From assembly GCA_024663395.1 (NCBI GenBank), contig JANFAH010000020.1, positions 682,001 through 746,000 of the forward strand: a stretch of DNA of 64,000 nucleotides, read 5' to 3'. A program made the translations under genes and the position numbers. The stretch comes from Pisolithus tinctorius (taxonomy: Eukaryota > Basidiomycota > Agaricomycetes > Boletales > Pisolithaceae). Below, piece by piece: positions 16,226 through 61,371 of the stretch (the first letter of the stretch is position 1; each line of letters begins with the position of its first letter). Under the pieces are notes generated by a model. That model did no database searches and was not told the DNA's origin. It saw only the letters and a program-made list of their open reading frames with translations.

Positions 16226-16893
16226 TGTAGGAATAAGTCCAAGTAGCTGTACAATACGAGCTAAATGGCTTAGATAACAACAATAAAAATGAAGGGAATG
16301 AAATGTTTGTCCCAAGGGATTCTGGACTGTTGAGACTAGAAGGTGAGACCCAGTGCTTGGTAGCAGTAGTGGTTCATGACGTGCATGGCGTGGTCCGCAG
16401 AGTAGTACTGGTGATGTGAGTGGTGTGAGTGGTATACATAGTGCGTGCGCAGCAGAATGTGAGACGTGCGGTGTAGACAAAGTGCAAAGGAAACTTGTGG
16501 TGACCTTCTGAGAGCCAAAAGGTCTGTTTCTGTACCTAAGTACAGGGCTTTATAGTCTGGGCAAACCCGGAACCTAAGTAAGACAAGGCACAGTAAGGGA
16601 AAACCATGTGACAGCGCATAGACACAAGACAGGATGGGCCAGAACAGAGGCCAAGGGTATACTACCAACCAAAAGGGAACAGTGACTGTGTTAAAAGAAA
16701 GGGTCCGAAGGAAGGAGAAGCAGCTGCAGGTATAGCCTTGTGCGAGAGGGAGTGAGGGCATGGGAAGGTAGCGAGGTAGGCAGGAAGACAGCATGTGAAC
16801 ATTGGTGGATGTGAGAGGGGAGCGGACATAATAGTAGTCATGGAACGGTTAATGATAGGGGCTTATGCATCCAGGGAATGCGGATTCCTCACA
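16226..16893 (-). repeat. Probable 3' LTR of gypsy-3
   Basis: On the minus strand the stretch starts TGTGAGGAATCC right after a polypurine/hairpin segment, and ends ATTCCTACA, where the interrupted TGTCAAG-family LTR resumes. The length is 668 bp and it has TG...CA ends. No second copy exists in the window, so the boundaries are inferred. Confidence 0.5.
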
Positions 16894-16930
16894 CCTGCAG
16901 GGGACTTAGATGCTGACTGTCCCCGGTCAG
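16894..16930. repeat. 37-bp direct repeat, copy a (partner at 18905-18942)
   Basis: CCTGCAGGGGACTTAGATGC followed by TGACTGTCCCCGGTCAG recurs at 18905-18942 with a handful of differences. On the gypsy-3 strand it looks like the polypurine region before the 3' LTR and contains a GGGGAC...GTCCCC hairpin. The two copies bracket the Zn2Cys6-type gene. Confidence 0.7.
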
Positions 16931-17203: not shown

Positions 17204-18203
17204 ATGTCTGCTAGCCATGCCCCTCAACTGTCCCAACTCATTCGTGCATCGACCCCCAACCCGATCAAAGCGGGGAAGACCGCTCTAAGGGGAAAGTTCA
17301 TTGCTGCATCTGCAGCTCTGGTTGCTGAGGCAAAGTGCATGCCAGACGACAGGGAGAAGTGTTCCCCCTCGTCGAGCGTGGGCAAGAGCTGGGGATCGAC
17401 ACCAAGATAGATGCTGCGGATGGGCCCACGGTGGCAGAGGCCGACGAGGCCTATGAGAAGTGGGTGGCCAAGGAGATTGCACGCAGAAGGACCGATGAGG
17501 ACATGCAGATGGAAGAGGTGGTCATGCAGGCTGCCATTGAGCAAGGTGCTAGTGCTGAGGTGCCAGCAGCGACAGAGAAAATGTCGCACATCGAAGTGGT
17601 GTCCCATCCGGTTTGGAAGGTAAGTGCACAATCTGGACAGTGTGGTAGTGGCTGACACTGAAGTCCTAAGCGATCATGGCAAATGGTGGTAGAGAGCGAA
17701 GACGAGGACGAGCCCAAGATCACCATCCCACCTGGCTCAATTCTCCACAAGGTGCCCTGCATGCGCTGCACGGTCAAGAATACTGCATGCATAGGTCCGA
17801 TCAGGCGCACATGCAATGGCTGCACGCAGATGAAGCAGGGGTGTGAAAAGTCGACAAAGGCCACAGGAAAGAAGGTGCAGACAGGCACACCTGTCAGTAA
17901 GTGGTGACTTTACCTCAGGAGGGTTCCAGCTGACGTTGAGTAGCGCAGTCCTCAAGGGCTGCGAAGGCTGGCCCCTCCAAGAGGGCCGCAGACAATGACA
18001 AGGTGGAAGTGGTCGAGAGCTACACACGCGCAAAGGGGAAGGCACCGGTGTGCAGTCAGCTCGATCCCAAGGTCGCAGCCGACCTCTTGCAGTTGTTGAG
18101 GCTGTTGCACATGGAGGCCATGGAGTCGCACGCTGCCTACCTTCAACTCCAGGTGCGCATGGATCAGCTCGCCAAGGCACTGGAGAAGATTGGGGTGGAG
18201 TAG
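17204..18203 (+). pseudogene. Zn2Cys6-type coiled-coil gene antisense within gypsy-3
   Basis: ATG at 17204 (MSASHAPQL). Reading shifts by one base near 17,330 into the frame of ARRQGEVFPLVERG. A 75-nt intron (about 17620-17694, GTAAGT donor) leads to SEDEDEPKI and then a cysteine cluster of spacing CX2CX6CX7CX2CX6C (CMRC...C...CNGC...C, 17758-17850), the Gal4-like binuclear zinc pattern. A second intron near 17,890-17,955 (GTCAGT or GTAAGT donor, GCGCAG acceptor) joins to a C-terminal leucine-rich helix (DLLQLLRLLHMEAM, QLAKALEKIGVE) ending at 18203. It lies on the strand opposite to gypsy-3 pol, between pol and the 3' LTR, exactly like the gene at 56920-57975. The role is unknown; DNA binding is an inference from the Cys spacing. 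One frameshift suggests decay. Confidence 0.6.
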
Positions 18204-19083: not shown

Positions 19084-20901
19084 TCAGCTGTCTGTGGCAA
19101 AAGCCTCTATATCATCATCAGTGGGATCTTCCTCAGCTTCCTCAAGAAGGCAGTCAAGTTCTTCATCATCCAACCCAGTAATGTGAGTCATGGTTGCATG
19201 GGTCTGAGACTGTGGGTGGTAGGGAAGTAAATGGAATGCAGCGAAGCAGAGTTTGGAGATAGAGCCATCCAACTCAGCCAGCAGGTACGAACCCCCAGTG
19301 GTCCAATGAAGGATGACCATGGGACCAGTGTACTGTGGCTTTGTCTTCTGGTTCAGTTCTTTTTCTATGTGGGAGTTGCAGACAAGCATGAGGGTGCCAG
19401 GAGCGAAGTTATGGTCTTTAATGCGATGCTGAAAGGTGGTTTCAAACTGCTGGATAGACTGGAAGTGTGCACAGAGGACATTGCTGCAGACCTGGTCTAA
19501 GTCATCTTGGCACTTCTGTAACTGGCGGGCGCACCAAGCAATCAGTTCTGTGGTAGTCAGCGGTGTTGCATCATCATGGGATAGGGGCAAAAGGAAAGTA
19601 TCCTTGGCAAGGTTGAATGGGAACAGTGGTTCAACACTGTGTACCATGAAGTAAGGGGATAGACCCATGGATTTCAAGATGGTGACCTGCTCGGCCCAGA
19701 ACACAGAGTGTGCAACAGTGTGCCAGCGGTGGTTGTCATTTTCGCAGCTCTTCTTGATAGCCTTGCGAACATCATAGTGCTGATGCTCTACAATGCTGTT
19801 AGCCTGAGAGTTGTAAGGAGAGATACGGATGTGACGGATATGATATTGCGTGGCTAGGGCATCTAAGGCTTGGACGAACGTGGGACCATTGTCAGTGACA
19901 ATTTCGGTGAGTGGAGCCCAGTGACATAGAATGTCCTTGAAGATGAAGGATGTGAGTGCAGTACTATTTTCTGCCCACAACATGCGCCATTCAGGATATG
20001 AGGTGAGCGTGCAACGAGCCTGCACTATGTAGTGGTAGCTGCCAGCTTTGGGCATTAGCATCGTGTCAATGTGAGCTTTATGAAACAGGCCCCCTATCAT
20101 GGGTACAGTGGGGGGGATATGAAGCTTCTTCATCTGGTGGATCTGGCATTCATGACAAGTGCGGACATACCACTTCACATCCTCAACAAGAAGAGGCCAC
20201 CAGAAGCGAAGGAGAAGGCACATACAGACCGTAAAGACACCCTTGTGCCTGAGGTCGTCATGCACTTCTTTGATGAGACGATACTGCTTGGATTTGTTGA
20301 TGACCAGCTGGTGCCATCCATGTGGTTCCCTACGCCATAGATTACCATCTAGGAGGAAAAAGTGGCTAGCTGAACTGAAGAAAGATGAGTACTGTGCATC
20401 AGTAAGGTCAGGAGGTCGCTCGCGGGTCACAAGGAATGCGCGGATCATTTCTATCTTCGCTTCACGTGCCCAAGCTTTTGTGGACTGCAGAATAGCAGGG
20501 TCGTCAGGGGTATTGGAAGAGTTATAAGCATCAGCAGTCACAGAGAATGCGAGATAGAAGGATGGAGGCAGTGGGAGGCTCACCTGGTGATAAGTGGGAG
20601 GTGGTAAGGAATGATGTTTGTGACTGAAAAGGGATGTAGGAGGTGGGCAGTCATTGAAAGCCTCTGTAGAGAATGAGTAAAAACGGTCTAGCCAATCCTC
20701 ATGGTCGTCATCCTCAGGCAGGTCGAGCTCTGACTGCGGACGGTGGGACAAGCCATCAGGGCCAGCATGCCTGTCCGCAGGAATGTGAATGAGTTTGAAC
20801 GAGAAGAGGAGGATGCCAGCGATCCAGCAATTGATCATCGTGTTAGGCTGCAGATCTGGGTTATTTATCATGCCCTTAATATACTTTGCATCTACCTCCA
20901 C
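19084..20901 (-). CDS. gypsy-3 pol, RNase H end and integrase (605 aa open frame)
   Basis: The frame opens with EVDAKYIKGMINNP, the end of a Ty3 RNase H, and continues HAGPDGLSHR into integrase. The zinc-binding HHCC module is complete (H..H in HDDLRHKG, CHEC). The catalytic core has D in HIDTM, VTDNGPTF and the Glu in NSIVEHQHYDVRKA, so all three acidic residues are present. The C-terminal part carries a GPY/F-like segment (PQYTGPMVILHW) and a long acidic tail (EELDCLLEEAEED) with no chromodomain. There is no stop for 605 codons. The upstream RT part is broken, so this is a preserved half of a dead element. Confidence 0.9.
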   Translation of the reverse strand: MEVDAKYIKGMINNPDLQPNTMINCWIAGILLFSFKLIHIPADRHAGPDGLSHRPQSELDLPEDDDHEDWLDRFYSFSTEAFNDCPPPTSLFSHKHHSLPPPTYHQVSLPLPPSFYLAFSVTADAYNSSNTPDDPAILQSTKAWAREAKIEMIRAFLVTRERPPDLTDAQYSSFFSSASHFFLLDGNLWRREPHGWHQLVINKSKQYRLIKEVHDDLRHKGVFTVCMCLLLRFWWPLLVEDVKWYVRTCHECQIHQMKKLHIPPTVPMIGGLFHKAHIDTMLMPKAGSYHYIVQARCTLTSYPEWRMLWAENSTALTSFIFKDILCHWAPLTEIVTDNGPTFVQALDALATQYHIRHIRISPYNSQANSIVEHQHYDVRKAIKKSCENDNHRWHTVAHSVFWAEQVTILKSMGLSPYFMVHSVEPLFPFNLAKDTFLLPLSHDDATPLTTTELIAWCARQLQKCQDDLDQVCSNVLCAHFQSIQQFETTFQHRIKDHNFAPGTLMLVCNSHIEKELNQKTKPQYTGPMVILHWTTGGSYLLAELDGSISKLCFAAFHLLPYHPQSQTHATMTHITGLDDEELDCLLEEAEEDPTDDDIEAFATDS

Positions 20902-21040
20902 AGTGAAGTTAGTGAGACCAAAGATGTATATGCGTGGAAGAGACCGTACAGCTCAAGCTTGGCCTGGGAGTAATGGCTTTCCACTTCGTTGAGGTGATGG
21001 ATCTGAAACGACTTGGGTACCATCTGCCATCTTCACCAAG

Positions 21041-21950
21041 CTAGTAGAGGATGTAGCCAACTGCGATGACCGATGTGTCAACTGCTAAAATTACTTCGCG
21101 ACCGCACTCGTAGTCAATCCTTTGGAGTGTGGGGGACTTTACAATTTCATCCTTGAGTCGTTGCATGGCAGTGCATTGCGGTTCATCCCACGTGAATGGT
21201 ACGTCTTTCCACGTGAGCGCGACTAGCGGCCATGCAATCTTGGTGAAGTCTTTGATGAAGATGCATAGCACACTGCAGACACCAAGGAAACTGTGAACCT
21301 GTGTCAGGTTGCAGCACTCGGGCCAGTCATGGATCTTCTGCACTTTGCTCTCTTCTGGAATGCGACCTTCAAAGGTGCACTTGTGGCCAACGATCACAGC
21401 AGATGGAGTGGCTAGCACGAACTTCTTTGCCGAGACAGTGGCTCCGACGTTCTGCAAACGCTGAAGGATATGGTTAACGACTATACAGTGATTCCAGATA
21501 AATCTCCGAATCCCAGGATTCTCCAGGATAGTCTCATAGGAGCCATCTGTGCACTGATAGCGGGTGGTCTTGGATTTTACGGGGATGTCATCTATGAAGG
21601 GCAGGGTATGATGCGGGATCTCATCCTGGAGAACAAATGCAGTATCTCCCTGGTATACCTGTACCGCATTCACATGACCTTGTGGCAGAGTAGTAAGCCA
21701 ATGTGGTCCAAGGGGGGTACTGAAGGTGGTGAGGTCATGGGAATCGATGTGGAGTGTGCGCTGGTCATACCCGGAGTAGAGGTCCATCATCACATACACT
21801 GCATATCCAGCAAAGGATTCTGCAAGATGTTCTATGAAGGGTAGAATGGACGCATCGTGGATGGTCACTCCATTCAGGGGCTGTAAGTCATGCACAAAAC
21901 GCTTCTTGACTCCACTCCACGTGGCACCCTGACAAGGACCCCGAAAGAAA
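21041..21950 (-). pseudogene. gypsy-3 reverse transcriptase, 5' truncated, with stop and frameshifts
   Basis: From about 21950 the frame reads VKKRFVHDLQPLNGVTI, then DLYSGYDQRTLH, and the catalytic FIDDIPVKS (about 21,590), followed by the thumb and tether (NPGIRRFIWNH, KIHDWPECCN, FLGVCSVLCIFIKDF) and the RNase H start (AVDTSVIAVGYILY). It stops at TAG 21041, where family members have Gln (CAG). A frameshift separates it from the integrase frame at 20901. Protease and gag are missing; the sequence is replaced at about 21,950 by the LINE leader. Confidence 0.8.
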
Positions 21951-23940: not shown

Positions 23941-24272
23941 GACCCAATGCAAACCAATGCGCTAACCAAACTCTGCATATGGCAACAAAACCTAAACACC
24001 TCTCACATAGCCCTACATTCGCTAATAAACAGCCAACTATCAAACGATTGGGACATAATCACCCTACAAGAACCACCAATAGACCAACTCAGCAACATGT
24101 GAGCCAACACCCACTGGAGGGTAGTCTACCCCATGAAGAAAATGACGCAGAATACCAGACCATGAGCAGTAACCCTAGTTAACTCCAGAATCAGTACTAA
24201 CACTTGGGAACAGGTCAATTTTCCCTCCACAGACATCGTCATAACGTGGCTAAGGACTACTAAGGGCACATA
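23941..24272 (+). pseudogene. LINE ORF2, start of the apurinic endonuclease domain
   Basis: After ORF1 the frame reads LCIWQQNLNTSHIALHSLI, WDIITLQEPPID, a TGA (24100-24102), ANTHWRVVYPMKK, a second TGA (24163-24165), AVTLVNSRIS. This is the N-terminus of an AP endonuclease (N in QNLN, E in QEPPID). Both TGA codons stand where the reading suggests Arg. The copy ends at the TA where FB2 starts; RT is absent. Confidence 0.75.
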
Positions 24273-25845: not shown

Positions 25846-25847
25846 TA

Positions 25848-32762: not shown

Positions 32763-33582
32763 TGTGAGTCAAAGTGTGGTTCAGTGGTGGAAACCAACCA
32801 AAACCAACACAAAAGACAATTAGAGTGAGTGGTGGTGTGCCTATGTGGTACCTAGATGGTGGAACCTTTTATTTGGGTGGTTTTTATGAGCTACAACACT
32901 CAAAGATGAGTGCTGAGGGTTGGGGGTGCTCCTGATGAAGTGGGAGCAAGAATGCAAGAGAATGCAATGGAGTAGACTGCTGTCAGCCTACAGAAGGATG
33001 AATGAAGACTTAATTTGATGCTCAGAGGTGCACTGAGCTCAGGGAGGACTTGGAGTGAAGTATATTGATGACAGATGATGATATGTGAAGTAGATGATAG
33101 TTAGACCCTTAATAAAGTCTCAACTATTGAACCTGCTGAATGAATTACTGAGAGATGATAAATTGTGAGCAAGAGGGGCTCTCTGATGTCTTCTTCTTAT
33201 TCAGCTATCTAAGTACAGTGATTTATATACAGTACAGGGGTGTTGCCTATGGAAAACAAGGTGCAAACACTTGGTAAGTGATTGGTAACTGATAAGCAAG
33301 GAATGTAAGTGGTGGGTAATCATCTTAGAAAGCATTGGTGAGCATTGGTAAGGATAAGTAAGCCAAAAAGCGAAGAATCAGTAAGCAAAGTCAAAAGATG
33401 GGTAAGTATTGGCAATAGGTGAGTCAAGGACAGTCAGAATGTCAAAGTATGAGTCAAGTAATGTCAGGAACTTGGAAAGCACACTGGAATTGCATTAGGG
33501 GGAGGCTGTGCATGTCACATCTTGAAGAGATCACTTCCAGGCCAAGGTGGGATGACAGAGAGGCAGCACCAATCTGATGCCA
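32763..33582 (-). repeat. R1 repeat, copy C (820 bp)
   Basis: On the minus strand it begins TGGCATCAGATTGG and ends TTTGACTCACA; it is nearly colinear with 44629-45449 (821 bp). It contains an array of ACTTACCAAT-like words, a TATA region (TATATAAAT), and a block around TTTATTAAGGGTCTAACTATC. TG...CA ends, a promoter-like middle and fixed length suggest an LTR, but I found no flanking duplication. The 3' edge abuts the ATG at 32762. Confidence 0.7.
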
Positions 33583-33719
33583 ATATGCAGTGGCTCACAA
33601 AATTGTCTCAATGTTTGCATGTTCTTCATTAATTGTGGTGTAGCAAGTGAGCTATCATTATTGAGTCAAGGTATTTGTGGATGGATTAAAGCAGCTGGTC
33701 ATGGCTCTCTGATGAGCCA

Positions 33720-35747: not shown

Positions 35748-36141
35748 TGTTACGATACGTACTCTTTTCCTCTCTTCTCCTTTCTCTTCATCTTATCTAG
35801 TCTTGTCGTCTTATCTTATCTCTTGGCCTTGGTCTGGACTCCGGCCTGGACCTCGCCTCACCTCTGCCTTGCTTTCTCCTTCTAGTACGTTCCGCTCCAC
35901 TATGATATCATTATGACATCTCCATGATGTCATGGACCTCATGTATGCCTCACCGTTACCTCATGTACTATAGTATAAGTACCGTTGCTCAATCACCCAA
36001 CTAGCTCTAAGCTAGTTCATTTGGGTTTTTGAGTCCTAAATCTGCCTGCTTCCAAGCCGCTTCCCTTTCCTTCTCTTTACTCTTCTTTGTTGGTTCTTGG
36101 TGCGAGCCTACAACAAACCCTGTTGTTTAGGTCTCATCACA
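35748..36141 (+). repeat. gypsy-2 5' LTR (394 bp)
   Basis: TGTTACG...TCATCACA. It contains a TATA-like ACTATAGTATAAGTACC near 35,965 and a pyrimidine-rich tail before the leader. Confidence 0.9.
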
Positions 36142-41210: not shown

Positions 41211-41601
41211 TGTTACGATACGTACTCTTTTCCTCTCTTCTCCTTTCTCTTCATCTTATCTAGTCTTGTCGTCTTATCTTATCTGTTGGCCTCGGTCTGG
41301 ACTCCAGCCTGGACCTCACCTCACCTCTGCCTTGCTTTCTCCTTCTAGTACGTTCCGCTCCACTATGATATCATTATGACATCACCATGATGTCATGGAC
41401 CTCATGTATGCCTCACCGTTACCTCATGTACTATAGTATAAGTACCATTGCTCATCACCCAACTAGCTCTAAGCTAGTTCATTTGGGTTTTTGAGTCCTA
41501 AATCTGCCTGCTTCTAAGCCGCTTCCCTTCCTTCTCTTTACTCTTCTTTGTTGGTTCTTGGTGCGAGCCTACAACAACCCTGTTGTTTAGGTCTTGTCAC
41601 A
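41211..41601 (+). repeat. gypsy-2 3' LTR (391 bp)
   Basis: It follows the polypurine tract CTAAGGAGGGGATAG (41196-41210). Compared with the 5' LTR it has CpG transitions (CCGG/CCAG, TCGCC/TCACC, CCGTT/CCATT), a few single-base indels, and one site where one LTR reads CA and the other TG. Confidence 0.9.
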
Positions 41602-44510: not shown

Positions 44511-44628
44511 GAGAGGACAGTTAGGGGGGGAAAGTTGCAATCCCCTATGCTCCTGTCACCCCACAGACCCCAAAGCTTGACCCCTGTTGACATCTGACTC
44601 ACCCTGTCCACTTTTGGATGTACTATAT

Positions 44629-45449
44629 TGGCATCAGATCAGCACTGCCTCTCTGTCATCCCACTTTGGCCCAGAAGTGATCTCTTCAAGATGTGACATG
44701 CACAGCCTCCCCCTAATGCAATTCCAGTGTGCTTTCCCAGTTCCTGACATTACTTGACTCATACTTTGACATTCTGACTGTCCTTGACTCACCTATTGCC
44801 AATACTTACCAATCTTTTGACTTTGCTTACTGATTCTTCCCCTTTTGGCTTACTGACCCTGACAAATACTTACCAATGCTTTCTAAGACAATTACCCATC
44901 ACTTACATTCCTTACTTATTACTTACCAATCACTTACCAAGCATTTGTACCTTGTTTTCCATAGGCAATGCCCCTGTACTGTATATAAATCACTGTACTT
45001 AGATAGCTAAAAAAAAAAGATGATGTCAGAGAGCCCCTCTTGCTTGCAATTCATCATCTCTCAGTAATTCATTCATCAGCTTCAATAGTTGAGACTTTAT
45101 TAAGGGTCTAACTATTGTCTACTTCACTTATCATCATCTATCATCAATATACTTTGCTCCAAGTCTTTCCTGAGCTCAGTGCAGCTTAGGACATTGATTT
45201 AAGTCATCATCCATCCTTCTGTAGGCTGATAGCAGTCTACCCTATCGCTTCCTCTTGCATTCCCACTCCTTCTTCATCAGAAGCACCCCCAACCATCAGC
45301 ACTTGTCTTTCAGTGTTGTAGCTCACAGAAACCACCCAAACAAAAGGTTCCACCATCTAGGTACCACATAGACACACCACCACTCACTCTTATTGTCTTT
45401 TGTGTTGGTTTTGGTTGGTTTTCACCACTGAACCACACTTTGACTCACA
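44629..45449 (+). repeat. R1 repeat, copy A (821 bp)
   Basis: TGGCATCAGATCAG...TTTGACTCACA, colinear with copy C (32763-33582). It holds many ACTTACC words, TATATAAATCACTG near 44,980, and an A9 run at about 45,010. A plus-strand gene starts 15 bp downstream at 45464. Confidence 0.7.
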
Positions 45450-49397: not shown

Positions 49398-50436
49398 ATG
49401 TCTACCACCAACACCAGCACCTTCATCCCAGCACAATCAACTGACAACATCTGGCCAGTCATCACCACTGAAAATGCCAAGCAGATGGTCAAGGAAGCTG
49501 CCACAGTTACCATGCAGGCACTGAAAGGGCTTTGGGGCCAGGATGCTAGGCACTGTAGGAAAGTGGCTGAGCTTGTGTGGGCCCAGCTGGTAAATGAAAT
49601 CACAGCCATGATATCTGTTCCTGACATCTATGTATGTAGGGCATGGTCTGCATGGTTGTTGATCATCTACCCCTGGCATTTGAGGTGCCTTGGCATCTTA
49701 ATGCCATCGATATGCTCATGATTGACCTGGTAATGATCTTTTCCATGCAGAAGTGGCTGCCTTTCAACCAGATGATGATGGCATGGGGGGCTGATGTGAA
49801 GGATCATGCATGGTATCACCTTCACCACCAGCCCAAGTCTCACCCAAATTACAAGGTCATGGAGGAGCTTACCTGGCCTTCATTGAGGGCCAAGCACCAG
49901 GCACAGCCCATGGATAAGGGGAAGGGGAAAGAATTGGGTAGGGATGAGGCTCAAGGGATTCAGCTTCCAGGTGAGCACTAATTCTGAGGATGGCACTTGG
50001 GTGGACCACTGATATGGGATCTGAAGATGCACCCACAGACACTACAGCTAGGACCAGTGGAGTTGCAATGCAGAAGCTGGGAAATGAGGAGGATCAGAGC
50101 AGGGAGAAGGCACAGGGCCATAGCCAGTCAAGACATGGCTGGCCAGTGGCCAAGCCTGTCAATACTGGTGATCAGACCAGTAGAGGCCAGAGCCAGTCAA
50201 GGAGACCAACAAGGAAGGTGAAATCAGCAGTTGATGAGGATGTGCAGGACTGGCAAGACATCAACAACCCTCCTGAGTTCTGGGAGGTAGTGCTGGAAGC
50301 TGAGTGGTGTGTGAGATGCCAGGAAAGGAGTTGGCCCTGTAAAGTTCTAGCTGGCAGGGCATGCTGGCAATGCCACTGTACCAAATACTCATGCAGCTTG
50401 TTCAAGGGGAGGGGAGACAAGTCCAAGATGCAATGA
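49398..50436 (+). pseudogene. Third Zn2Cys6-type gene, decayed
   Basis: ATG at 49398 (MSTTNTSTF). Pieces 49398-49721, 49643-49981 and 49990-50436 lie in different frames with possible introns between them. The last has a basic Ser/Gln/Arg-rich region, EDVQDWQDINNPPEFWE, then CVRCQERSWPC...CWQCHCTKYSC, with the spacing CX2CX6CX7CX2CX6C (50310-50397). This is the same Cys pattern as at 17758-17850 and in the gypsy-1 antisense gene. It is CpG-poor. No LTR element can be tied to it with confidence. Confidence 0.5.
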
Positions 50437-51063: not shown

Positions 51064-51590
51064 TGTCATAGTCATGCCTCGACTCTGGCCGGACTCAGCC
51101 TCGCACTCACTCAGTCCGGCCTCGGCCTCACTTGTCCCGTATCTCCAGTTGGTCTAGCACAGTAGACACTGCTTTGCAGTGTCTGTCATTTCGGTTAAGT
51201 CCTGTCCCCAGTCTTGTCCCCGGTCCACTCTGTCCCGGTCTCCATTACCTTAGTCATACGTTACTAATACCTGTCTTACCAATCCTCTTAGCAATCCTTG
51301 CGAGACCGGTATTACCGGTCTCCGTACTATAGTTACTTCTAGTATATAAACTCGTAGATACTCGGCCTGTAGACCCTAGTCTGAAATCAACTAAGTCACC
51401 TCTGATAACTCCGTCTCAGCCTCAGACTCGGACTGAGACCCATGCAAGGGAATAGCGCTGTACCCTCAGTCGCTAAGTCCAAACAGTCCACCCACCCATG
51501 CCTTCGTCTTTACCTCTGATCCCAACCCCTCGGCCTCACGCCCGCCTCGGTCTCCGGTCCGGTCTCAACCCGGACATCCCGTACTTGACA
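51064..51590 (+). repeat. gypsy-1 5' LTR
   Basis: TGTCATAGTC...GTACTTGACA. It carries a TATA box in CTAGTATATAAACTC at about 51,343 and CTTACCAATC-type words upstream. Seven of the nine differences from the 3' LTR are CG in the 3' copy and TG or CA here. Confidence 0.97.
51342..51350 (+). promoter_or_regulatory. TATA box of the gypsy-1 LTR promoter
   Basis: GTATATAAA lies about two thirds into the LTR, the normal place for the U3/R border. The 3' LTR has the same word near 58,375. Confidence 0.6.
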
Positions 51591-51628
51591 GTATTTCAGA
51601 CTCTCCACTTGTGTGGGTCTAATACATC

Positions 51629-53020
51629 ATGGCAACCAAGACTCGCTTCCAACCTCCCCGTGGCCGTTCTGCCACCAATCCCAACTCCGCTTCAGCCAGT
51701 GGGGCTCGCCGCGAAACAGCTCTAGCTGCGTTGGGCACCACTAGGCGCTCTCCAGATCCCGTTAGTCCCTTCAGGGGCTTCTCAGCCTGCACTTCTAATA
51801 CCCCCACCCCACGTCATCCCACTGCTCCCATCCCTGAGGGTGACCCTGGCGATGATGGGCCAGGCGATGATGATGATAATAACCCAGATAATGATGACCC
51901 CGGCAACGGTCCCGGCGATGATGGGCCCAGTGACGATAATCCGGATGAGGATGATCCAGAGGACGAACTGAACTTCCCAGACCCGGACACCGAACCCGTG
52001 GTCGTGGTCTTCGACAGCCTCGCGAAGGCCATCAAGCTGTTGGCTCGCAACGCCCGTACTAGTCCTGAGTCCTCAAGCAGGACCAAGCTACGCGAGCCCG
52101 ATACCTTTGATGGTACCGACCCCAAGAAGCTTCGCGCATTCTTCATCCAGTGCGAACTTAACTTCCAAGACCGACCCCGGGCTTTTAGGACCGACCGCGC
52201 CAAGGTCATCTTCGCCCAATCATACCTCAAGGGCATGGCTCTTGAGTGGTTCGAGCCGGACTTGCTCGGGCTCGACGACCCCAATGATCGGCCTCTCTGG
52301 ATGGACTCCTGGAGGGAGTTCGTCCTGGAGCTACAAACCACCTTCGGACCCCATGACCCGGTTGCTGATGCCGAAAGTCAACTCGACCACTTGCACATGA
52401 AAGATAGCCAGCGCATCAATAAATACATAGTCGACTTCAATCGGCTTGCCTCGCAAGTCCGAGGCTACGGCGATGGTGCGCTGCACCACCACTTCTACTC
52501 CAGACTCCCAGACCGGATTAAGGACGAAGTTTGTCGAGTTGGCAAACCCCGGACACTTCACGAGCTCCGCCACCTCACCCAGGAGATAGATGCGCGCTAT
52601 TGGGAGTGCAAGGAAGAAGTCCAGTGGGCGAATAAGCACCAGGGCTCGTCCAACTCTGGTAACAACAAGTCCGGTGGCTCCGGCAACAATAGTCAGCCCA
52701 AGACCGGCCAAGACAAATCCAAGGCCGGCAACAACAACAACTCCGGATCTTCTCCCAAGCTGGCTTCATCGAAGCTGGGCAATAATAATAACAGCAATTC
52801 GTCCAAGCCCGAGCCTAGCAAACTCGGCAAAGATGGAAAGCTTACCCCTGAGGAACACAAGCGTCGCATAGACGGAAACCTCTGCATGTTCTGCGGAGGG
52901 TCCGGTCACTTCGCTGACAAATGCCCCAAGAAGACTGGAAAGGCCAAAGCTCGCGCTGCGGCTACCACTGAGGCCGCACCGGCCTCGGGCTCGGGTACTA
53001 CCCCCAAGACAAAAAAATAG
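51629..53020 (+). CDS. gypsy-1 Gag (463 aa)
   Basis: ATG at 51629 is the first ATG of the frame, 38 bp after the LTR. A very acidic Asp-rich low-complexity stretch (residues about 70-120) is followed by the Ty3 gag core (FDGTDPKKLRAFFIQCELNF, YLKGMALEWFEPDLL, RINKYIVDFNRLASQV, LHELRHLTQEIDARYWE). Next comes a Ser/Asn/Gly-rich linker and a complete zinc knuckle CMFCGGSGHFADKC (CX2CX4HX4C). The end is Lys-rich; TAG at 53018-53020 follows a run of seven A that forms the frameshift site. The frame is intact. Confidence 0.95.
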   Translation: MATKTRFQPPRGRSATNPNSASASGARRETALAALGTTRRSPDPVSPFRGFSACTSNTPTPRHPTAPIPEGDPGDDGPGDDDDNNPDNDDPGNGPGDDGPSDDNPDEDDPEDELNFPDPDTEPVVVVFDSLAKAIKLLARNARTSPESSSRTKLREPDTFDGTDPKKLRAFFIQCELNFQDRPRAFRTDRAKVIFAQSYLKGMALEWFEPDLLGLDDPNDRPLWMDSWREFVLELQTTFGPHDPVADAESQLDHLHMKDSQRINKYIVDFNRLASQVRGYGDGALHHHFYSRLPDRIKDEVCRVGKPRTLHELRHLTQEIDARYWECKEEVQWANKHQGSSNSGNNKSGGSGNNSQPKTGQDKSKAGNNNNSGSSPKLASSKLGNNNNSNSSKPEPSKLGKDGKLTPEEHKRRIDGNLCMFCGGSGHFADKCPKKTGKAKARAAATTEAAPASGSGTTPKTKK

Positions 53021-53058
53021 GTAGCGGCTCCCAGGACTCTGCACAATCTGGGAGCTGC
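53011..53058 (+). promoter_or_regulatory. Programmed -1 ribosomal frameshift signal between gag and pol
   Basis: In the gag frame the last codons are ACA AAA AAA TAG, so A-AAA-AAA at 53011-53017 is a canonical X-XXY-YYZ heptamer touching the stop. Six bases later an 11-bp stem can form: 53024-53034 (GCGGCTCCCAG) with 53048-53058 (CTGGGAGCTGC), one G-U pair, loop 13 nt. Pol is open in the -1 frame straight through the site (ATA GGT AGC GGC...). Slippery site, spacer and stem all have textbook geometry; function is not tested. Confidence 0.8.
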
Positions 53059-56000
53059 ATTGACTCCGGTTGTGCAAACTTGGAGGCTCGTCTCAACACG
53101 TCTGCTCTTTCCAGTCCGAACTCTTTAACCCCATATGTCACCATAGAAAACCCAGAAATACCTCGGCTTCGTACTTTAGTGGACTCCGGCTCCACCCATT
53201 GTTTTATAGATAATCAGTTTGTTAATCAACACTCGTTTACCCCTTACTCGGTCTCACCAATCCGACTCCGGCTCTTCGATGGAACGTCCACCTTCACCAT
53301 AACCCAAGCAGTAGATGTCAATATCCGCTTCGCATCCGGCGATGTCACCCCAGTAACCCTGTATTTAGCCCCGTTGGATTCTGAGTGTAGAATAGTCCTC
53401 GGACATGACTGGCTCACCCGCTACAATCCGTTGATTGATTGGGTATTGGGCAGTCTAACATTCCGGACTCCTGCACAAGGAATGCCAACCCCGTCAACAC
53501 CCCCTGTAAGCCCGGTCTCCACCGGCCTTCCTGACCCCGGTCCTAGTGACCAACCCGGCCTCGCGCCATCTGTACCGGTCTCCAACTCCCCAGCTCGCAC
53601 CCCTCTGAAAGCCCCTCTTGTTTCCCTGATCAACACAGCTGCCTTTGTGCGCGCCTGCAAACTAGAAGGGTCCGTCCAATTCCAACTTCAGCTCCGCCCC
53701 TCGGACTCAGCTCAAGCCCGATTGGCCTCGGCTTCCCCTTCTCCGGCCTTACCCAATGTACCGGAGGAGTACCACGACTTCGCTGATGTATTCAGCAAGG
53801 CCAAGGCCTCGGCACTCCCACCACACCGGGAGTACGACCTGAAAATAGAGCTTGAAGAAGGAACGACCCCGCCTCTTGGCACCATCTACTCGCTGTCTCC
53901 GGTCGAGCTGCAAGCTCTCCGGACCTTCATCGATGAAAACCTTACTACCGGATTCATTCGGCCTACTTCCTCCCCTTATGCTGCACCGGTCCTCTTTGTC
54001 AAAAAGAAGGACGGCTCCCTCCGGCTTTGCGTAGACTTCTGCGGTCTGAACAAAATCACTAAGAAGGATCGCTACCCACTCCCGCTCATCTCCGACCTGT
54101 TAGATTCACCAAGCCGAGCCAAGATCTACACTAAGATTGACCTTTGGCATGCCTACCATCTCGTCTGGATTGCCCCGGGCGATGAATGGAAGACCGCATT
54201 CCGGACTCGGTATGGATCTTACGAGTGGTTAGTAATGCCCTTCGGCCTCACCAATGCCCCAGCCGCCTTCCAACGCTTTGTGAATACCATCTTCGCGGAT
54301 ATGTTGGATGTCTGCGTAGTCGTCTACTTAGATGACATCTTAATCTACTCCAGAGATAAGGAGTCTCACAAGCAGCATGTCCGAGAAGTCCTCTGCCGGC
54401 TTCGGCTTCACGGCCTTTATGCGAAGCCGGAGAAATGTGAGTTCCACTCGGACTCGGTCGAATACCTCGGATTCCACCTCTCCCCTGCCGGCCTCACGAT
54501 GTCCAAGGAAAAGGTCCAGACCATCTGCGACTGGCCTGAGCCTCACAAGGTCAAGGACATCCAATCCTTCCTCGGCTTCGCCAATTTCTACCACCGCTTT
54601 ATCTTTAATTACTCGGACATCGTCGTACCGCTGACTCGGCTTACCCGCAAGGGGGCTCCTTGGAACTTCTCTGAGGAGTGCCGCCGATCATTCAACAACC
54701 TCATGGCCGCCTTCACCACCGCACCGGTCTTAACTCATTTCATCCCCGGGGTCCCTATCACCGTCGAGACCGACGCATCGGACTACGCCATCGCCGGCAT
54801 TCTGTCTATTACTTGTGGCGACGGCCAGATACATCCAGTCGCATTCTACTCCCAGACTCTGACGGCCCCAGAATTGAATTATGATACTCACGACAAGGAA
54901 TTGCTTGCTATATTCGAAGCATTCCAGACCTGGCACCACTACCTTGAGGGCTCGGCCTCACCGGTCGACATTGTAACCGACCACAAGAACCTCGAGTACT
55001 TCTCTACCTCTAAAGTACTCACCTGCCGCCAAGCTTGCTGGTCGGAATTCCTTTCTCAGTTTAATATGATCATCAGGTTCAGGCCCGGTAAGCTCGGGGC
55101 TAAGCCCGACGCCCTAACTAGACAATGGGACGTCTACCCCAAAGAGGGGGATAGCGGCTATGCCCGAGTGAACCTGCAAAATCTGAGACTGGTCTTCACC
55201 CAGGAGCAACTAGCAGTCTCCCTCCGCACAACTTACCTAGAGTACCCGGTCTTACGAGCAGTTGCCTTAATGGATGTCGAGAAACTTCATAATGATATCC
55301 TGACCGCACTGCTGGACGACCCAGTCTCACAAATCCGTCTGTCCGACATGTCTGACCCCCGGTGGTCGGTAGATGACACCGGTTTCCTTCGCCTCGATGG
55401 AAGGATCTATGTGCCGGACTCAAACGACCTTCGCCTTAGGGTCTTGCGCCTCAAGCATGACCACCCCCTGTCTGGCCACTTCGGCCAAAATCGCACACTG
55501 GAACTCATTCAGCATGAGTACACCTGGCCCGGCCTCAGGACCTTCGTCAAGGACTATGTCTGGTCTTGCACGGCCTGCACTTGGGCTAAGGTTCCCTGCC
55601 ATCGGCCTTACGGCCTCCTCAAGCAACTTCCGGTGCCAGAGAAGCCATGGAACTCCATATCTATGGACTTCATTGAGCAACTCCCGGCCTCAACTGGCTT
55701 CACGGCCATCCTCGTTGTAGTTGACCGGCTTTCCAAGCAGGCCATATTCATCCCCACCCACGACACCATCACGGCCCCAGAACTTGCCAGGTTATTCCTA
55801 CTCCATGTCTTCTCGAAGCACGGAGTACCAGCCCATGTAACCTCAGACTGAGGTTCGGAGTTCGTGTCTCACTTCTTCCAGTCACTTGGTAAGGCCTTGG
55901 ATATGCGCTTACATTTCACCTCGGGCTACCACCCCGAAGGTGATGGCCAGACCGAAAGGACCAACCAGACCCTAGAACAATACCTCCGAGTGTACTGCAA

Positions 56001-56737
56001 CTACCAGCAGGACAACTGGGCCGACCTATTACCCTTGGCCAAGTTCGCTTATAACAATGCCCCTAGTGCTACTACCGGTGTTTCACCCTTCTTCGCCAAT
56101 AAGGGCTATCACCCTAACATCTCGGTATACCCAGAGCGCGATCTCACCTCCACTCGGGCTCGCGATTATGCAGTCGACCTAGACTCACTGCACCAGTTCC
56201 TACGTGAGGAGATGACCCTCGCACAACAGCGCTACCAAGGACCGGCCGATGCCAAACGCATGCTGGCTCCGGACTTCAAGGTCGGTGACCAAGTATATGT
56301 CAAAGCTAAATACTTCTGGTCTACTCGGCCTTCCAAGAAGCTCTCGGAAAAAAATCTTGGGACCGTACCCGGTCATAGCTCAGGCCGGTACCCACTCATT
56401 CACACTGTGCCTGCCAGACTCAATGTGCACGGTACATCCGGTCTTCCACGTCTCCCAACTCGAACCGGCCGTCCCTAATACCATCCCGAACCGGACTCAA
56501 CCACCACCCCCACCAGTCGAAGTTGATGGTGACCTAGAGTTCGAGGTAGCAGAGATCCTCGACTCTAAGGTCGACCAGCATCGCCGGTGTTGGCTTCAAT
56601 ACTTAGTCCGGTGGACCGGCTACGAGGGGACCGATGAAGAAACTACTTGGGTACTTGCCACTGAACTAGACAATGCCTCTGAACTCGTACAAGAGTTCCA
56701 CTCCCGCTACCCCGCTAAACCCGGCCCATACCAGTGA
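53017..56737 (+). pseudogene. gypsy-1 Pol: protease, RT, RNase H, integrase, chromodomain; one TGA and one frameshift
   Basis: The -1 frame runs from the slip site. Protease: LVDSGSTHCFIDN. RT: PVLFVKKKDGSLRLC, KIDLWHAYHLV, VVYLDDILIYS (about 54,325). RNase H: VETDASDYAIAGIL, YDTHDKELLAI, VTDHKNLEYF. Integrase: zinc module H-H-C-C (HFGQNRTLELIQHEY...CTACTWAK), SMDFIEQL, VTSD, then TGA at 55849-55851 where Arg (SDRGSEF) is expected, GSEFVSHFF and GDGQTERTNQTLEQYL with the Glu. At an A7 run (56348-56354) the frame shifts by one base into ILGPYPVIAQAGTHSF and FHVSQLEPAV, then a chromodomain (FEVAEILDSKVDQHRRCWLQYLVRWTGY) ending at 56737. Two small repairs would restore it, so it is nearly intact. 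Confidence 0.92.
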
Positions 56738-56919
56738 GGACCGGTCTCAACCGGCCTCGATTTTCTGTTCTGTTCTCTATCGGTATATAGTTCCTCTTGA
56801 TTTCTTACTTACTTTGTTTTCTCGTTCTTGTCTTCTCTTACTGTACTATAGAGGACCGGACACCGGACACCGGACGTGACAATTCACAGGAAGAACAACA
56901 AAGGCACTACGCTACGATC

Positions 56920-57975
56920 CTACTCGGCCATATTCTCATCCTCCCCCTCGGACTCCTCCTCCTCATTTTTGCTGTGGGCCTTCATCCACTCGGCCTCCTC
57001 GTGCAACTCATCGGAGTCGAGCTCGGATGAGCCCGAGTCTGAGGGCGAGACTGCCACACCAAAGCCGTACGACTCGAGAGCGTCGGCGATGCGGCCTGAG
57101 TTTTCGACCGCGGTCTCGTGAAGTTCGAAGAGGCTGGCCAAATTGTTGGCAATCAGCCCCGCGGCCTCGATCAGTCGCTCGAGCTTGTTTTCCAAACCCG
57201 AGTACCTTTCGGTGCCGGCCTCCCTCAGCCCACTCCCTCCGGCCTCGGGCTCGTTGATCTCCAACACCTCAACCGCTTTCGACTTTGCCCGCTTCTTCTG
57301 GCTCGGCCCGGGCTCTGGCGTCTCTTCGTCAGCCTTCCGCTTCTTCCCTTTGTCGGCCTTGATCTTGGGACCGGCCTCGGTGTCCTTCCCATCTCCTGGC
57401 CACCGGCACTTGCCCTTCGATAGGTTGCACCGCACACAGGCAACGCGCTTCTTGTTGCCATCTACGACAAACTCGCAGACGACTTGAGCGTGGGCGCAGC
57501 GAGTACAGCTGAAAAGGAGGTTAGAAGACAAACGCGCACCAGATCAAAAATATACTCACCCGGGGACCATTACCACCCGTTTCACTTCACCCCCGGCCTC
57601 ACCACTAGCACCGGCCTCATCACCCTTGCTGGTCGTGGCCTTACGCTTACGCTCGGCCTCCCGTTTCTCCTCCTCTTCGTGCACCTTCTTCTCCTCGGCC
57701 TCCCTCTCTGTTCTCTCGGCCTCAGCTCTCTCCCGCGCTGCCCTCTCGGCTTCGGCCTGCTCCCTCGCCGCCCTCTCGGCCTCAAGCCACGCCTGTTCCA
57801 CCCGCCGGGCTTGTTCAGCCGCCTTTCGTCTCTTCCTTTCTTTCGCCTTCGCTCTCATCACCTCCTCCTCATCGTCGGTGTCGTATCTGATGTTGTCATC
57901 AGGGACTTGGGCCCAGTCGACGACGACTTGGCCTTCGCTGTTGTTGGCGGCGTCGATCGGTCTGGAGTCGGACAT
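56920..57975 (-). CDS. Antisense Zn2Cys6-type coiled-coil protein carried by gypsy-1 (334 aa)
   Basis: ATG at 57975 (MSDSRPIDAANN). Exon 1 is 57975-57560; a 51-bp intron (57559-57509, GTGAGT...TTTCAG) joins it in frame to exon 2, 57508-56920. Exon 1 encodes an Asp-rich start and a long Ala/Glu/Arg coiled coil (about residues 40-115). The splice falls just before a cysteine cluster CTRCAHAQVVC...CVRCNLSKGKC with spacing CX2CX6CX12CX2CX6C, the Gal4-type binuclear zinc pattern. Then follow a Lys/Arg-rich nuclear-localisation-like stretch (KKRAKSKAV), a leucine-rich helix (LENKLERLIEAAGLIANNLASLFELHE) and an acidic C-terminus. No damage is seen although pol is broken. It is transcribed against pol, between pol and the 3' LTR. 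A DNA-binding regulator is an inference. Confidence 0.8.
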
Positions 57976-58095
57976 GATGAAAAGAATGAGAATGAAAGAT
58001 GCAAAGAGCTTAGCGGGCCACAAGTATCAATTTTTCGAACTCAGCCTGCCACTCTCGCAGGGGTCTCATGGGTTCGACCCCTAAGAGGGGGATAC

Positions 58096-58622
58096 TGTCA
58101 TAGTCATGCCTCGACTCCGGCCGGACTCGGCCTCGCACTCACTCAGTCCGGCCTCGGCCTCACTTGTCCCGTATCTCCAGTTGGTCTAGCACAGTAGACA
58201 CTGCTTTGCAGTGTCTGTCATTTCGGTTAAGTCCTGTCCCCAGTCTTGTCCCCGGTCCACTCTGTCCCGGTCTCCATTACCTTAGTCATACGTTACTAAT
58301 ACCTGTCTTACCAATCCTCTTAGCAATCCTTGCGAGACCGGTATTACCGGTCTCCGTACTATAGTTACTTCTAGTATATAAACTCGTAGGTACTCGGCCT
58401 GTAGACCCTAGTCTGAAATCAACTAAGTCACCTCTGATAACTCCGTCTCGGCCTCGGACTCAGACTGAGACCCACGCAAGGGAATAGCGCTGTACCCTCA
58501 GTCGCTAAGTCCAAACAGTCCACCCACCCGTGCCTTCGTCTTTACCTCTGATCCCGACCCCTCGGCCTCACGCCCGCCTCGGTCTCCGGTCCGGTCTCAA
58601 CCCGGACATCCCGTACTTGACA
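58096..58622 (+). repeat. gypsy-1 3' LTR
   Basis: 527 bp, same ends as the 5' LTR. Its upstream neighbour is the polypurine tract AAGAGGGGGATAC. It retains more CG than the 5' LTR. Confidence 0.97.
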
Positions 58623-58627
58623 ATCAG

Positions 58628-61371
58628 GTCTTGCACAAGCATCTTTGATCATGATGGGATCTGTCCCTTCTAGCTCTGCAGTCCCAGCAACCAAGGCAAA
58701 AACTTCTTTGTCATCTTCATCCATCACCCCCATCATGCCCAGGTTTGCTGTCTCTCTATTCTCCTCTTGTTGTGAGCCTGGTTGTATTCCTCAAGGTAGT
58801 GGTAGTGTAGGTAGTGAGATTTGTCCATTGTATGTACCCTCACCCTCATGCAGATGCCATACATATGCTGACTCGATGCATGTTCGACCAGAGTGACAGG
58901 TGAGTGCTGCAGGTTCAAACCTTAGTCCAAGGTGGTCAATTTGTGTACTTGGTGTCATAGGTGCACTTTCTGTGGTTTGTATGGCATGTTGATTGCTTTT
59001 ACCAGGTACAGGTGAGGTGGATGATGCTCCCTCATCATCTGTGATGTATTTCTCCCCCTCAAGCTGCATGCCAATGGGAATGGTGACCTCTTGCGAGCTG
59101 AATCGGACATCTTGTTCGACACCCACATGTTGTGAGTCCTCAAAATAAATTCTGTGCACATTTGTGTCCTTATCGAAGCCCACCCAGCAACCATCTTTTG
59201 CATGCATGTCTAGTTTCAAACCATCTGCTGTGTGGAGTTTGATATGGCAGCCCCAGATTGGTAGATTAGATAGATCTGGTTTCTTTTTATACAGCATTTT
59301 GCAGGGTGTTGTTTTGTCAAGTGCATGGGTAGAGGTTTGGTTCTTTAACCAGTTCACATGCATTATGGCTTCTCCCCATAGCAACTTTGGGAGGCTGCTT
59401 TCATTTAGCATGGCATGTACACATTCAACAAGTGTGTGGTTCAGCCTTTCAGCAACACCATTATGCTGTGGTGTATCATGCACTGTGAGCTTCCTCTCTG
59501 TTCCTCTTAGCCCAAGATGACATGAAAACTCTTTGCTTAGGAATTCCCCACCCTGGTCCAAGTGAAGCCTTTTAACCTTTGTGTTGAACTGTGTCAGCAG
59601 CCAGGCTTCATACTTCTGGTAGGACTTAAAGGTTTTGTCCTTTGACTTCAAGAGGTACAGGCTTGTAAAGCAAGTATGGTCATCAGTGTATGACATGAAA
59701 TACTGACTCCTTGCATTTGTTTGGACAGGGGATGGTCCCCATAAGTCCATATGGGTTTCATCACCAGCCTTGTCTCAGCATGGGGGGTCTTGGATTTTTC
59801 CTATTGGTTTTTGGGTTGCCTTGGCATACTCATATGCATCGCAAGATTCAATTGTTGCATGGGAAGGGTCTAGGCTTATTCTGGTTACAATGCCATCCTT
59901 TAGCATTTGTTTAATAGTGTCTGGTGATATATGGCCAAGCCACACATGGATATCTTCCATGGTAAGGGTTACTCTTGAGTTGGCCAAGCCCATGTAAACC
60001 TTCTGTGTGGCTTTGGTTGTATAGAGGCCACTGCTGACTGGTACTTCCCCAAGGAATTTCTTTTGTCTGTTAAAGATCTTGCAGCACGAGTCACAGAAGA
60101 GTATGGCATATCCACTTGCATCCAGGCAGCTAATGGATACCAGGGTCATGCCAATCTTACATGTATGCAGAACATCCTTCAAGAGGATACAAGTGGGCAA
60201 GTTGCCATTTGGTAGGGCTATGTACACATCTCCTTTTCCAATGGCTTCAAAGGTTCATTTGTCCACTGCAGTAATGGGTTTGGGAGTGATGGGCTTATAG
60301 TTGACAAAGTTTTCCTTGTATGACAACATGTGATGAGAGGCTCTGGAGTTGTATAGTGTAGTGTAGCTCAGGTGGTCTCATGTACACACTAGTAGTGAAT
60401 GTCTCTGGGGATGGTTGAGCTTTGTCAGCCTCAGCTTCATAGCTGTCATTGATATGTGCAAGCCATACCCCATCTGGGTCATTCCTGCTGTTGTCCTTAG
60501 CCACCACTGCACACTCTTTTTGCTTCCCTTTGTTTGGAGACTTCCCTCCACTTTGTGAGTCATCCCCACTTGACCTGCATTCATGAGCTTGGTGCCCACA
60601 TTTTCCCCATTTGTAGCAAGTTCCAGAAAACTTCTTCTGCTTTCCTCCAGCTGAGTATGCTGCATCATCTGCATCACTAGACTTCTTCTGCTTTGTGGCA
60701 TGGCAGTCATACTCATCTTGTACTGCATCCATGAGAGTCACAGTTGTTAGGGAAGTGGAGGTGGAAACTTTTGCAAGTGTGGACATTGCTCCAATGACAG
60801 AGTCATAAGAGCTTGGGAGGGATGTCATGACCATAGCCATGTAGCTTTTGTCTGTTGGGGCTTGGCCCATTGAGGCAAGTTGTTTGTTTAGTTGCTGCAT
60901 TTTGTCAAAGTGTTCCCTGACATTTCCCTTCTCCATGCATCTTATAGTTTGGAGCTTCTTCAGCAGTTCAACCAATACAACACAAGAGCACTTCGCAAAG
61001 TGATTGGATAGGTATGTCCAGATGTCAAGTGCAGTAGCCAGACTCTGTATTTGGATGAATAGTGTATCAGGGATTGTGCCAGCAATTTGTTGCTTGATGA
61101 TGGCTTGGCCAAGCCTCCATTCTTTTAGGGTAGCTTGGAAGTTTGTCACTTCCCTTTTCTCCTCTGTGGAGATAGGTATCCAGCTTTTGCTCCAGTTTGC
61201 TAGTGTCTTGGGGTTGACTGGCATTGTCTCAGTACCATCTATGTACCCAAGCAGCCCACAAGCATCCAAAGACCAAATTAGCCTGTCCTTGTATGTTACC
61301 CAGTTCTCTCCATCTGCCAAGAGCTTTGGGACCTTAAGGAAATCATCTCTGAGCTTGGATGTGAACAACAT
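58628..61371 (-). pseudogene. Copia-B gag, protease remnant and integrase, split by gypsy-1
   Basis: ATG at 61371. Gag (61371-60295) has LLADGENWVTYKDRLIWSLDACGLLGYIDGT, YLSNHFAK, KLQTIRCMEKGNVREHFDKM, LPSSYDSVIGAM and a knuckle CYKWGKCGHQAHEC whose second Cys is Trp. The frame breaks near 60,300. A TGA at 60257-60255 precedes TFEAIGKGDVYIALPNG (protease end). Piece 60227-59775 carries GAG-pre-integrase (HVWLGHISPDTIKQML). It ends at TGA 59775 but continues in the same frame as KAGDETHMDLWGP with integrase residues DDHT, LDQGGEF and NGVAERLNHTLVE (59750-58791). Sequence then runs into the gypsy-1 insertion at 58627. CG content is low. Confidence 0.85.

Follow-up and report, generated by a model that had tools for sequence, protein, structure and literature searches.

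A conserved, intron-bearing antisense gene between pol and the 3' LTR of a Ty3 retrotransposon family in Pisolithus tinctorius

We analysed a window of 64,000 nucleotides from Pisolithus tinctorius, an ectomycorrhizal fungus of the Boletales, together with its genome (221 contigs, 92.5 Mb). On the plus strand of this window, at 51064..58622, lies the LTR retrotransposon gypsy-1 (7,559 bp), bounded by two LTRs of 527 bp (51064..51590 and 58096..58622) with 98.3% identity and flanked on both sides by the 5 bp target-site repeat ATCAG, as read from the alignment. Its gag gene (51629..53020, plus strand) has Pfam matches to Ty3_capsid and Retrotrans_gag and a zinc knuckle scoring under the curated cut-off, and is followed on the same strand by pol (53080..56737), in which Pfam recognizes the PR-RT-RH-IN domains and a terminal chromodomain (Chromo, 1.3e-11). 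The LTRs, gag, domain order and chromodomain identify gypsy-1 as a Ty3/gypsy chromovirus. It is inserted into a minus-strand Copia-type element, of which gag, pre-integrase and integrase matches remain at 58791-61371, with Copia-type RT residues read from the alignment. Pol is interrupted in the window copy, its longest stop-free stretch being 959 codons compared with 1156-1272 codons in 13 of 20 other copies. Elsewhere in the window, an ORF at 43148-43663 matches DUF6570 (3.6e-21), a family frequent in repeats, and inverted or dispersed repeats of 0.2-0.8 kb with 89-99% identity lie at 4183-5009, at 24271-25847 and at 32763-33586 with 44625-45449. Three genes with six-cysteine clusters are discussed below: T1, the antisense gene of gypsy-1; T2, the antisense gene of gypsy-3; and T3, a third six-Cys gene. 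The locus is found again on contig C144, which matches the window at 100% identity over T1, T3 and the RT piece used below as a query, and which probably represents a second haplotype or a duplicate.

The initial annotation placed a two-exon gene on the opposite strand between the chromodomain and the 3' end of gypsy-1, and the exons, the intron and a product of 334 amino acids were all verified. T1 occupies 57975..56920 on the minus strand, between the chromodomain and the 3' LTR. Exon 1 (57560..57975, 416 nt) encodes the N-terminus and a long helix and is followed by a 51 nt intron (57509..57559) with the borders GTGAGT..CAG; exon 2 (56920..57508, 589 nt) encodes the six-Cys cluster, a basic linker, a C-terminal helix and an acidic tail. 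The cluster has the spacing originally reported, CX2CX6CX12CX2CX6C. The predicted protein is 100% identical with P. tinctorius M404DRAFT_28837, and the annotated proteins P0001 and P0121 match the spliced translations made here. Between the start codon of T1 and the 3' LTR there is a gap (57976..58095), which contains the polypurine tract and, read on the minus strand, probably the antisense promoter or 5' leader; it is conserved, with a p-distance of 0.063 compared with 0.17 in the T1 exons. Two motifs were observed in this gap, a tRNA B-box-like GGTTCGACCCC close to the polypurine tract and a GGCTGAGTYYGAAAA-like motif, of which the window has one and several copies among L030-L044 have two.

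The occurrence of T1 in other gypsy-1 copies was determined in a set selected, in order to avoid circularity, by the RT piece only: 887 candidates were found, 40 were scored and 20 were taken; the other 20 of the 40 comprise the window locus, its duplicate on C144 and 18 further copies. T1 was considered intact when its spliced frame exceeded 250 amino acids and contained the exact cluster. These data show that T1 belongs to the family, as it is present at the same place and on the same strand in 20 of 20 copies and is intact in 16 of them. All 13 copies with a pol of at least 1150 codons have an intact T1, compared with three of the seven with a shorter pol (hypergeometric p 0.007, computed by hand). 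L012 and L014 come from different contigs but share 99.98% identity along all 7.9 kb, and may for that reason be one locus counted twice; without L014, T1 is intact in 15 of 19 copies and in 12 of 12 long-pol copies (p 0.009, by hand). This pair, like that of the window and C144, suggests that some contigs of the assembly are probably duplicates or haplotypes. In L027 and L028, which have identical LTRs, gag, pol and T1 are all open. The initial annotation had drawn attention to the broken pol and undamaged T1 frame of the window copy; both facts hold, but the contrast is not special, since T1 decays with its element and fares like the rest of it, so that the contrast is a matter of chance in one copy. 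Searches of the genome with T1 itself gave 304 first-look candidates by DNA and 507 by protein, of which 40 and 150 respectively were scored, and no stop interrupts the matched stretch in 131 of the 150 scored protein matches, as counted by eye under a scoring that favours open copies. The RT-picked set, and not these similarity-picked matches, is the unbiased test of T1 retention.

Selection on T1 was assessed from mean pairwise dN/dS values in the 20 RT-picked copies plus the window. Exon 1 gave 0.18 and exon 2 0.135, and the same copies gave 0.125 for gag, 0.19 for the chromodomain and 0.07 for RT. For each T1 exon, four of the five other reading frames had values above 1, the remaining, third-position-linked reverse frame having 0.26-0.39. 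When 15 intact copies and the window were compared by region, every part of the protein was constrained (0.09-0.22), with values of 0.17 for the N-terminus, 0.22 for the long helix, 0.13 for the linker, 0.10 for the cluster, 0.22 for the second linker, 0.10 for the C-terminal helix and 0.09 for the acidic tail. Stop codons tell the same story: with the substitutions of each copy placed at random over the aligned codons, indels set aside, 32 stops were expected in exon 2 and 22 in exon 1 of the RT-picked copies, and one and none were found (1 compared with 54 in all). Two outcomes that the initial annotation had named as refuting it, absence of the gene from other gypsy-1 copies and lack of purifying selection, are thus both contradicted. 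Among 20 older copies picked by the gene itself, exon 2 has two stops (57 expected) and exon 1 has 14 (43 expected, 17 copies), indicating that older T1 copies are decaying. In exon 2 of older copies (L029-L048) we observed many codon changes of the C-to-T type, from R to W, Q, H or C, as expected of CpG methylation decay.

Of 40 copies, 37 (19/20 RT-picked, 18/20 gene-picked) have splice signals where they are expected, with the donor GTGAGT in 36 and GTGAGC in one and the acceptor YAG. The intron varies from 48 to 58 nt, with all three remainders modulo 3, and none of the other named stretches measured is as diverged (p 0.32 for the intron). At the level of sequence, such conserved signals and variable length are the behaviour of a spliced intron. 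These observations bear on a counter-defence function, in which the T1 protein, or antisense transcription itself, would block host silencing by RNAi or methylation. Antisense transcription would give double-stranded RNA over the T1 region, and the C-to-T changes in older copies imply that the host probably methylates or mutates them; however, neither selection at the protein level nor conservation of splice signals is expected if the antisense RNA alone were active, and we regard counter-defence as decidedly improbable. Selection close to that on gag, together with retention of T1 in every long-pol copy examined, argues that its product would favour propagation of the element.

Zn(II)2Cys6 proteins have the spacing CX2CX6CX5-12CX2CX6-8C, into which all three genes fall, with X12 in T1 and X7 in T2 and T3; the full cluster is present in 39 of 40 T1 and 20 of 29 T2 database proteins. 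The Pfam model of the family, PF00172 (Zn_clus), gave T1 only 7.4 bits against a gathering score of 21, and at E up to 1 it matched 8 of 40 T1 proteins (best 0.026) and 1 of 29 T2 proteins (best 0.09). In classical Zn2Cys6 proteins, the loop joining Cys 2 to Cys 3 is strongly basic and contacts CGG. In T1 this six-residue loop has no R, K or H in 17 proteins, one in 21 and two in one (n=39), and in T2 none in one, one in 15 and two in four (n=20), so that it is strongly basic in neither. The assignment to the Zn2Cys6 type made in the initial annotation is therefore upheld by the six-Cys spacing, but with a score of 7.4 bits against the cut-off of 21 it has to be weakened to Zn2Cys6-like. Compared with the GAL4-type factors, T1 and T2 are alike in cysteine spacing followed by a linker and helix, and differ in living inside a retroelement; T1 also differs in its sub-cut-off Pfam score, in the position of the cluster in mid-protein behind a long helix and in a first loop poor in basic residues.

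The AlphaFold2 model of T1 predicts an 80-residue helix with a core pLDDT of 89-98, a cluster and linkers of low confidence and a C-terminal helix, and that of T2 predicts three N-terminal helices, two short helices in a low-confidence cluster and a C-terminal helix; pLDDT within the cluster is about 40-57 in both. Foldseek with the T2 model gave no match at E up to 0.001, the PDB sequence search gave no relevant match, the Pfam scans of T1 proteins gave no match to a bZIP domain, and TRP28 (PF04195) was absent from the Pfam matches of 40 T1 and 29 T2 proteins at E up to 1. Judged from the models, such a product looks like a nuclear, dimeric, nucleic-acid-binding protein, and the T1 cluster may bind zinc. 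T1 and T2 may or may not be homologous: hhalign aligned them over the cluster only (E 8e-4, probability 24.6%).

Relatives of these proteins were sought in databases. The first search with T1 scored 7995 candidates, and the matches listed (120 of 184) were all from P. tinctorius, although other species could be hidden among the rest. A 152-aa piece of T1 used as query gave 27 relatives, again all P. tinctorius and all short proteins of 156-266 aa. Altogether at least 145 different P. tinctorius proteins are related to T1 (120 of the 184 plus 25 further), and UniProt labels many matches of both T1 and T2 as 'Zn(2)-C6 fungal-type'. T2 had 119 matches, 103 from P. tinctorius and 16 from Pisolithus orientalis (counted by eye). 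No relatives outside Pisolithus were among the matches listed with T1, the T1 piece or T2. The proposal that a host gene was captured repeatedly thus finds no backing in these matches. A captured host gene carried as a passenger could account for an intron and a Zn-cluster-like module, as in host regulators, but it sits poorly with the presence of T1 in 20/20 RT-picked copies, with constraint about as strong as on gag and with the restriction of listed matches to P. tinctorius (T1) or Pisolithus (T2), and we consider it very improbable. A regular accessory gene, working for the element, remains our preferred reading.

A second antisense gene is found in gypsy-3, whose pol (RT and IN, 19084..21895) lies on the minus strand and whose RT is 25% identical with that of gypsy-1. 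The probable 3' LTR is at 16229..16898 (minus strand), three related copies ceasing to align at 16223-16226; a 5' LTR partner was looked for and not found. T2 (17204..18203, plus strand) lies between pol and the putative 3' LTR, antisense to pol, and its cluster has the spacing CX2CX6CX7CX2CX6C. An intact copy, L052, has four exons separated by introns of 47, 51 and 47 nt and encodes 318 aa, identical with annotated P0121. By comparison with it, the damaged window copy consists of the pieces 17204-17352, 17353-17619, 17671-17896 and 17944-18203, with introns at 17620-17670 and 17897-17943; about 100 nt are missing from it, namely intron 1 with its donor and the last part of exon 1, with 58 nt of coding sequence unaligned, and its frame is broken as a result. 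Another copy, L050, has two stops and 4 nt unaligned, with all splice signals kept. In 22 copies picked by similarity, leaving out L050 and the window copy, dN/dS was 0.20 (0.92-1.48 in the other frames, 0.32 in the third-position-linked frame), donors read GTRAGT in 65 of 66 cases and acceptors AG in 66 of 66, and five stops were found compared with 72 expected. A TATA-like TATATAAT was read about 85 nt upstream of the T2 ATG. What the initial annotation said of this gene applies to its place and antisense orientation, but its Cys spacing is CX7 rather than CX12, it has four exons and its window frame is broken. These data support T2 as a second, different antisense gene travelling with the distant gypsy-3 lineage.

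T2 also bears on the possibility that T1 acts with the chromodomain integrase as an integration or chromatin tether, or as a nuclear-import factor, rather than on transcription. Such a role would be in line with the protein's basic stretches, its module resembling a DNA-binding domain and its dimer-type helix, with the position of T1 next to the chromodomain and with selection close to that on gag; against it, gypsy-3 has an analogous gene and no chromodomain match in its two pol ORFs. We consider a tether unlikely and return to a regulator of transcription below. An antisense gene is not a general Ty3 feature here, since gypsy-2 (LTRs 35748-36141 and 41211-41601, 97% identical; RT 44% identical with that of gypsy-1) has no room for one, its integrase ORF and 3' LTR being only some 0.4 kb apart, and provides a natural contrast without the gene. 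The third gene, T3 (49398..50436, plus strand), had been described as a third decayed copy. It is indeed decayed, with a CX7-spaced six-Cys cluster, but it belongs to a separate repeat family with 45 candidates in the genome: its alignment to two other copies (L055 and L056) ends at about 50510, where the window copy is cut off adjoining the Copia-type RT, no Ty3 context was found around it, and six ORFs in the flanks of two copies contained no Pfam domain. Beyond the point of cut-off, L056 has a coiled-coil-like stretch.

The silent sites of T1 set it apart from the rest of gypsy-1. Mean pairwise distance per tile is 0.04-0.11 from the 5' LTR to 56563, rises to 0.14-0.21 across T1 and falls again, to the value given above, in the 120 bp gap that separates its ATG from the LTR. 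By the Nei-Gojobori count, dS is 0.70-0.77 in T1 compared with 0.24 in RT, 0.25 in the chromodomain and 0.34 in gag. Transversions at four-fold sites (16 sequences, 120 pairs) amount to 0.143 in exon 2 and 0.127 in exon 1 compared with 0.037 in RT, 0.042 in gag and 0.049 in the chromodomain, a 2.6-3.9-fold excess. Three technical or mutational causes were considered and rejected. Picking by RT does not account for low RT divergence, as the 12 of 20 gene-picked copies that have a full RT (it is partial in three and missing from five) also gave 0.140 for exon 2 compared with 0.059 for RT, 2.4 times as many transversions, although four-fold transitions there were nearly equal (0.233 and 0.201 respectively). 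Codon bias is not the cause either, four-fold C being alike in gag, RT and exon 2 (0.47-0.48), although four-fold G is higher in T1 (0.32 compared with 0.15-0.21). As for CpG decay, the excess stays in transversions and at CpG-incapable sites, compared for exon 2 alone as exon 1 has too few (0.162 compared with 0.035-0.051).

In AU tests of the 16 sequences, the gag, RT and T1 data reject one another's trees, and T1 exon 1 and exon 2 reject each other's. The silent excess and these conflicts indicate that T1 recombines as a module and that its variants are older than those of the other parts of gypsy-1. Its protein is not diversifying, as dN/dS does not exceed 0.39 in any window of 20 codons. 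The hotspot would be compatible with balancing selection and also with gag-pol sweeping across old T1 variants. A self-limiting repressor or immunity factor, repressing the LTR in trans as phage repressors do while elements diversify to escape, would agree with the raised four-fold transversions in both copy sets and with free recombination, as expected of old allelic variants kept circulating. However, amino-acid divergence is not raised over silent divergence in any part of the protein, and T1 is kept in copies that should gain from loss of a repressor, so that we think a repressor unlikely. The preferred reading, a regulator that favours the element, raises the matter of its target.

CGG triplets are binding sites of Zn2Cys6 proteins, and the gypsy-1 LTR (3' LTR, 58096..58622) contains 35 CGG/CCG triplets compared with 18.7 expected (sd 3.0) and 10 CGG..CCG pairs compared with 1.9, an excess missing from the LTRs of gypsy-3 and of gypsy-2, which has no antisense gene. 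This suggests the LTR as a candidate target of T1. However, in the 3' LTR CpGs of the CGG type are no better conserved than other CpGs (0.79 compared with 0.81), so a role as binding sites is unsupported, and the excess may have another cause, since the word CGGCC is also frequent inside the T1 gene (16 compared with 2.7 expected). An operator built of CGG sites was accordingly dropped as a hypothesis and is kept only as a lead. Strong enrichment of the words CGGCC and GGCCTC was seen both in the LTR and across the T1 coding sequence, but not in gag.

The explanation that we favour, to which we would give an even chance, is that the T1 product is a nuclear DNA-binding regulator of transcription from its own LTR that favours propagation. 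T1 is a regular accessory gene of the gypsy-1 family, placed antisense between pol and the 3' LTR, with its own promoter probably just inward of the 3' LTR, between LTR and gene. Its intron would be invisible to splicing of the sense genomic RNA and would survive retrotransposition because an antisense intron cannot be spliced from that RNA, whereas a sense intron would be lost on reverse transcription. The spliced mRNA would then give a protein of roughly 330 aa in which a long helix precedes the zinc-cluster-like module, with basic stretches and, at the C-terminus, a helix of dimer type; in the nucleus this protein would bind DNA and act, presumably positively, on the element's own LTR.

Antisense regulators are known from other retroelements. 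HBZ of HTLV-1 is an antisense, spliced, nuclear regulator of coiled-coil type near the 3' LTR, a bZIP protein started inside that LTR. T1 is similarly antisense, intron-bearing and close to the 3' LTR, but it has no bZIP match and its promoter is likely to lie between LTR and gene. Some fungal chromoviruses likewise have accessory coding capacity, in the form of a dUTPase, which is described as part of Pol, or of an 'additional ORF', which may overlap with T1. The closest known kind, by analogy, is that of the Retand Ty3/gypsy elements of flowering plants, for which PMC11963269 describes, in the interval from pol to the 3' LTR, an antisense coding region with TRP28 (PF04195) in 97% of clusters of recently active elements and a product predicted to bind DNA and proposed as an element regulator; antisense retroviral genes are mentioned there as well. 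Gypsy-1 is alike in the position of an antisense ORF in recent copies. Retand, however, is a non-chromovirus plant lineage with TRP28, whereas gypsy-1 is fungal, bears a chromodomain and has in T1 a six-Cys cluster with no TRP28 match; the word 'intron' is absent from the main text of that paper, whereas the fungal introns of T1 and T2 are conserved, and for the fungal gene dN/dS, splice and recombination evidence is given here. In a survey of fungal LTR elements (PMC3248453), a term count did not find 'antisense' in the main text, and the titles and abstract openings of the mostly non-subscription literature consulted contained no report of an LTR element with an antisense Zn-cluster gene in fungi. 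The impression of novelty in the initial annotation thus holds for the fungal host, the protein, the lineage and the conserved introns, but not for antisense, possibly DNA-binding ORFs at this place as such, which plants have (PMC11963269).

More speculatively, and in our estimation improbably, each Ty3 lineage might encode its own spliced antisense DNA-binding regulator recognizing its own LTR family, with old variants kept and reshuffled by recombination as elements compete for each other's regulators or escape them. Such genes would have arisen, or been acquired, on two or more occasions in fungal Ty3 lineages that are very distant from each other; this would be a retrotransposon counterpart of phage immunity. 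The silent-diversity hotspot of T1 makes allele-specific regulation directly testable. For annotation, our results mean that fungal proteins labelled 'Zn(2)-C6 fungal-type' can be transposon genes. A fungal Ty3 family can have a fixed, intron-bearing antisense extra gene under selection about as strong as that on gag, and two lineages whose RTs share only 25% identity each have such a gene. Together with Retand and HBZ, this suggests that an opposite-strand regulator beside the 3' LTR may be a recurrent solution among retroelements.
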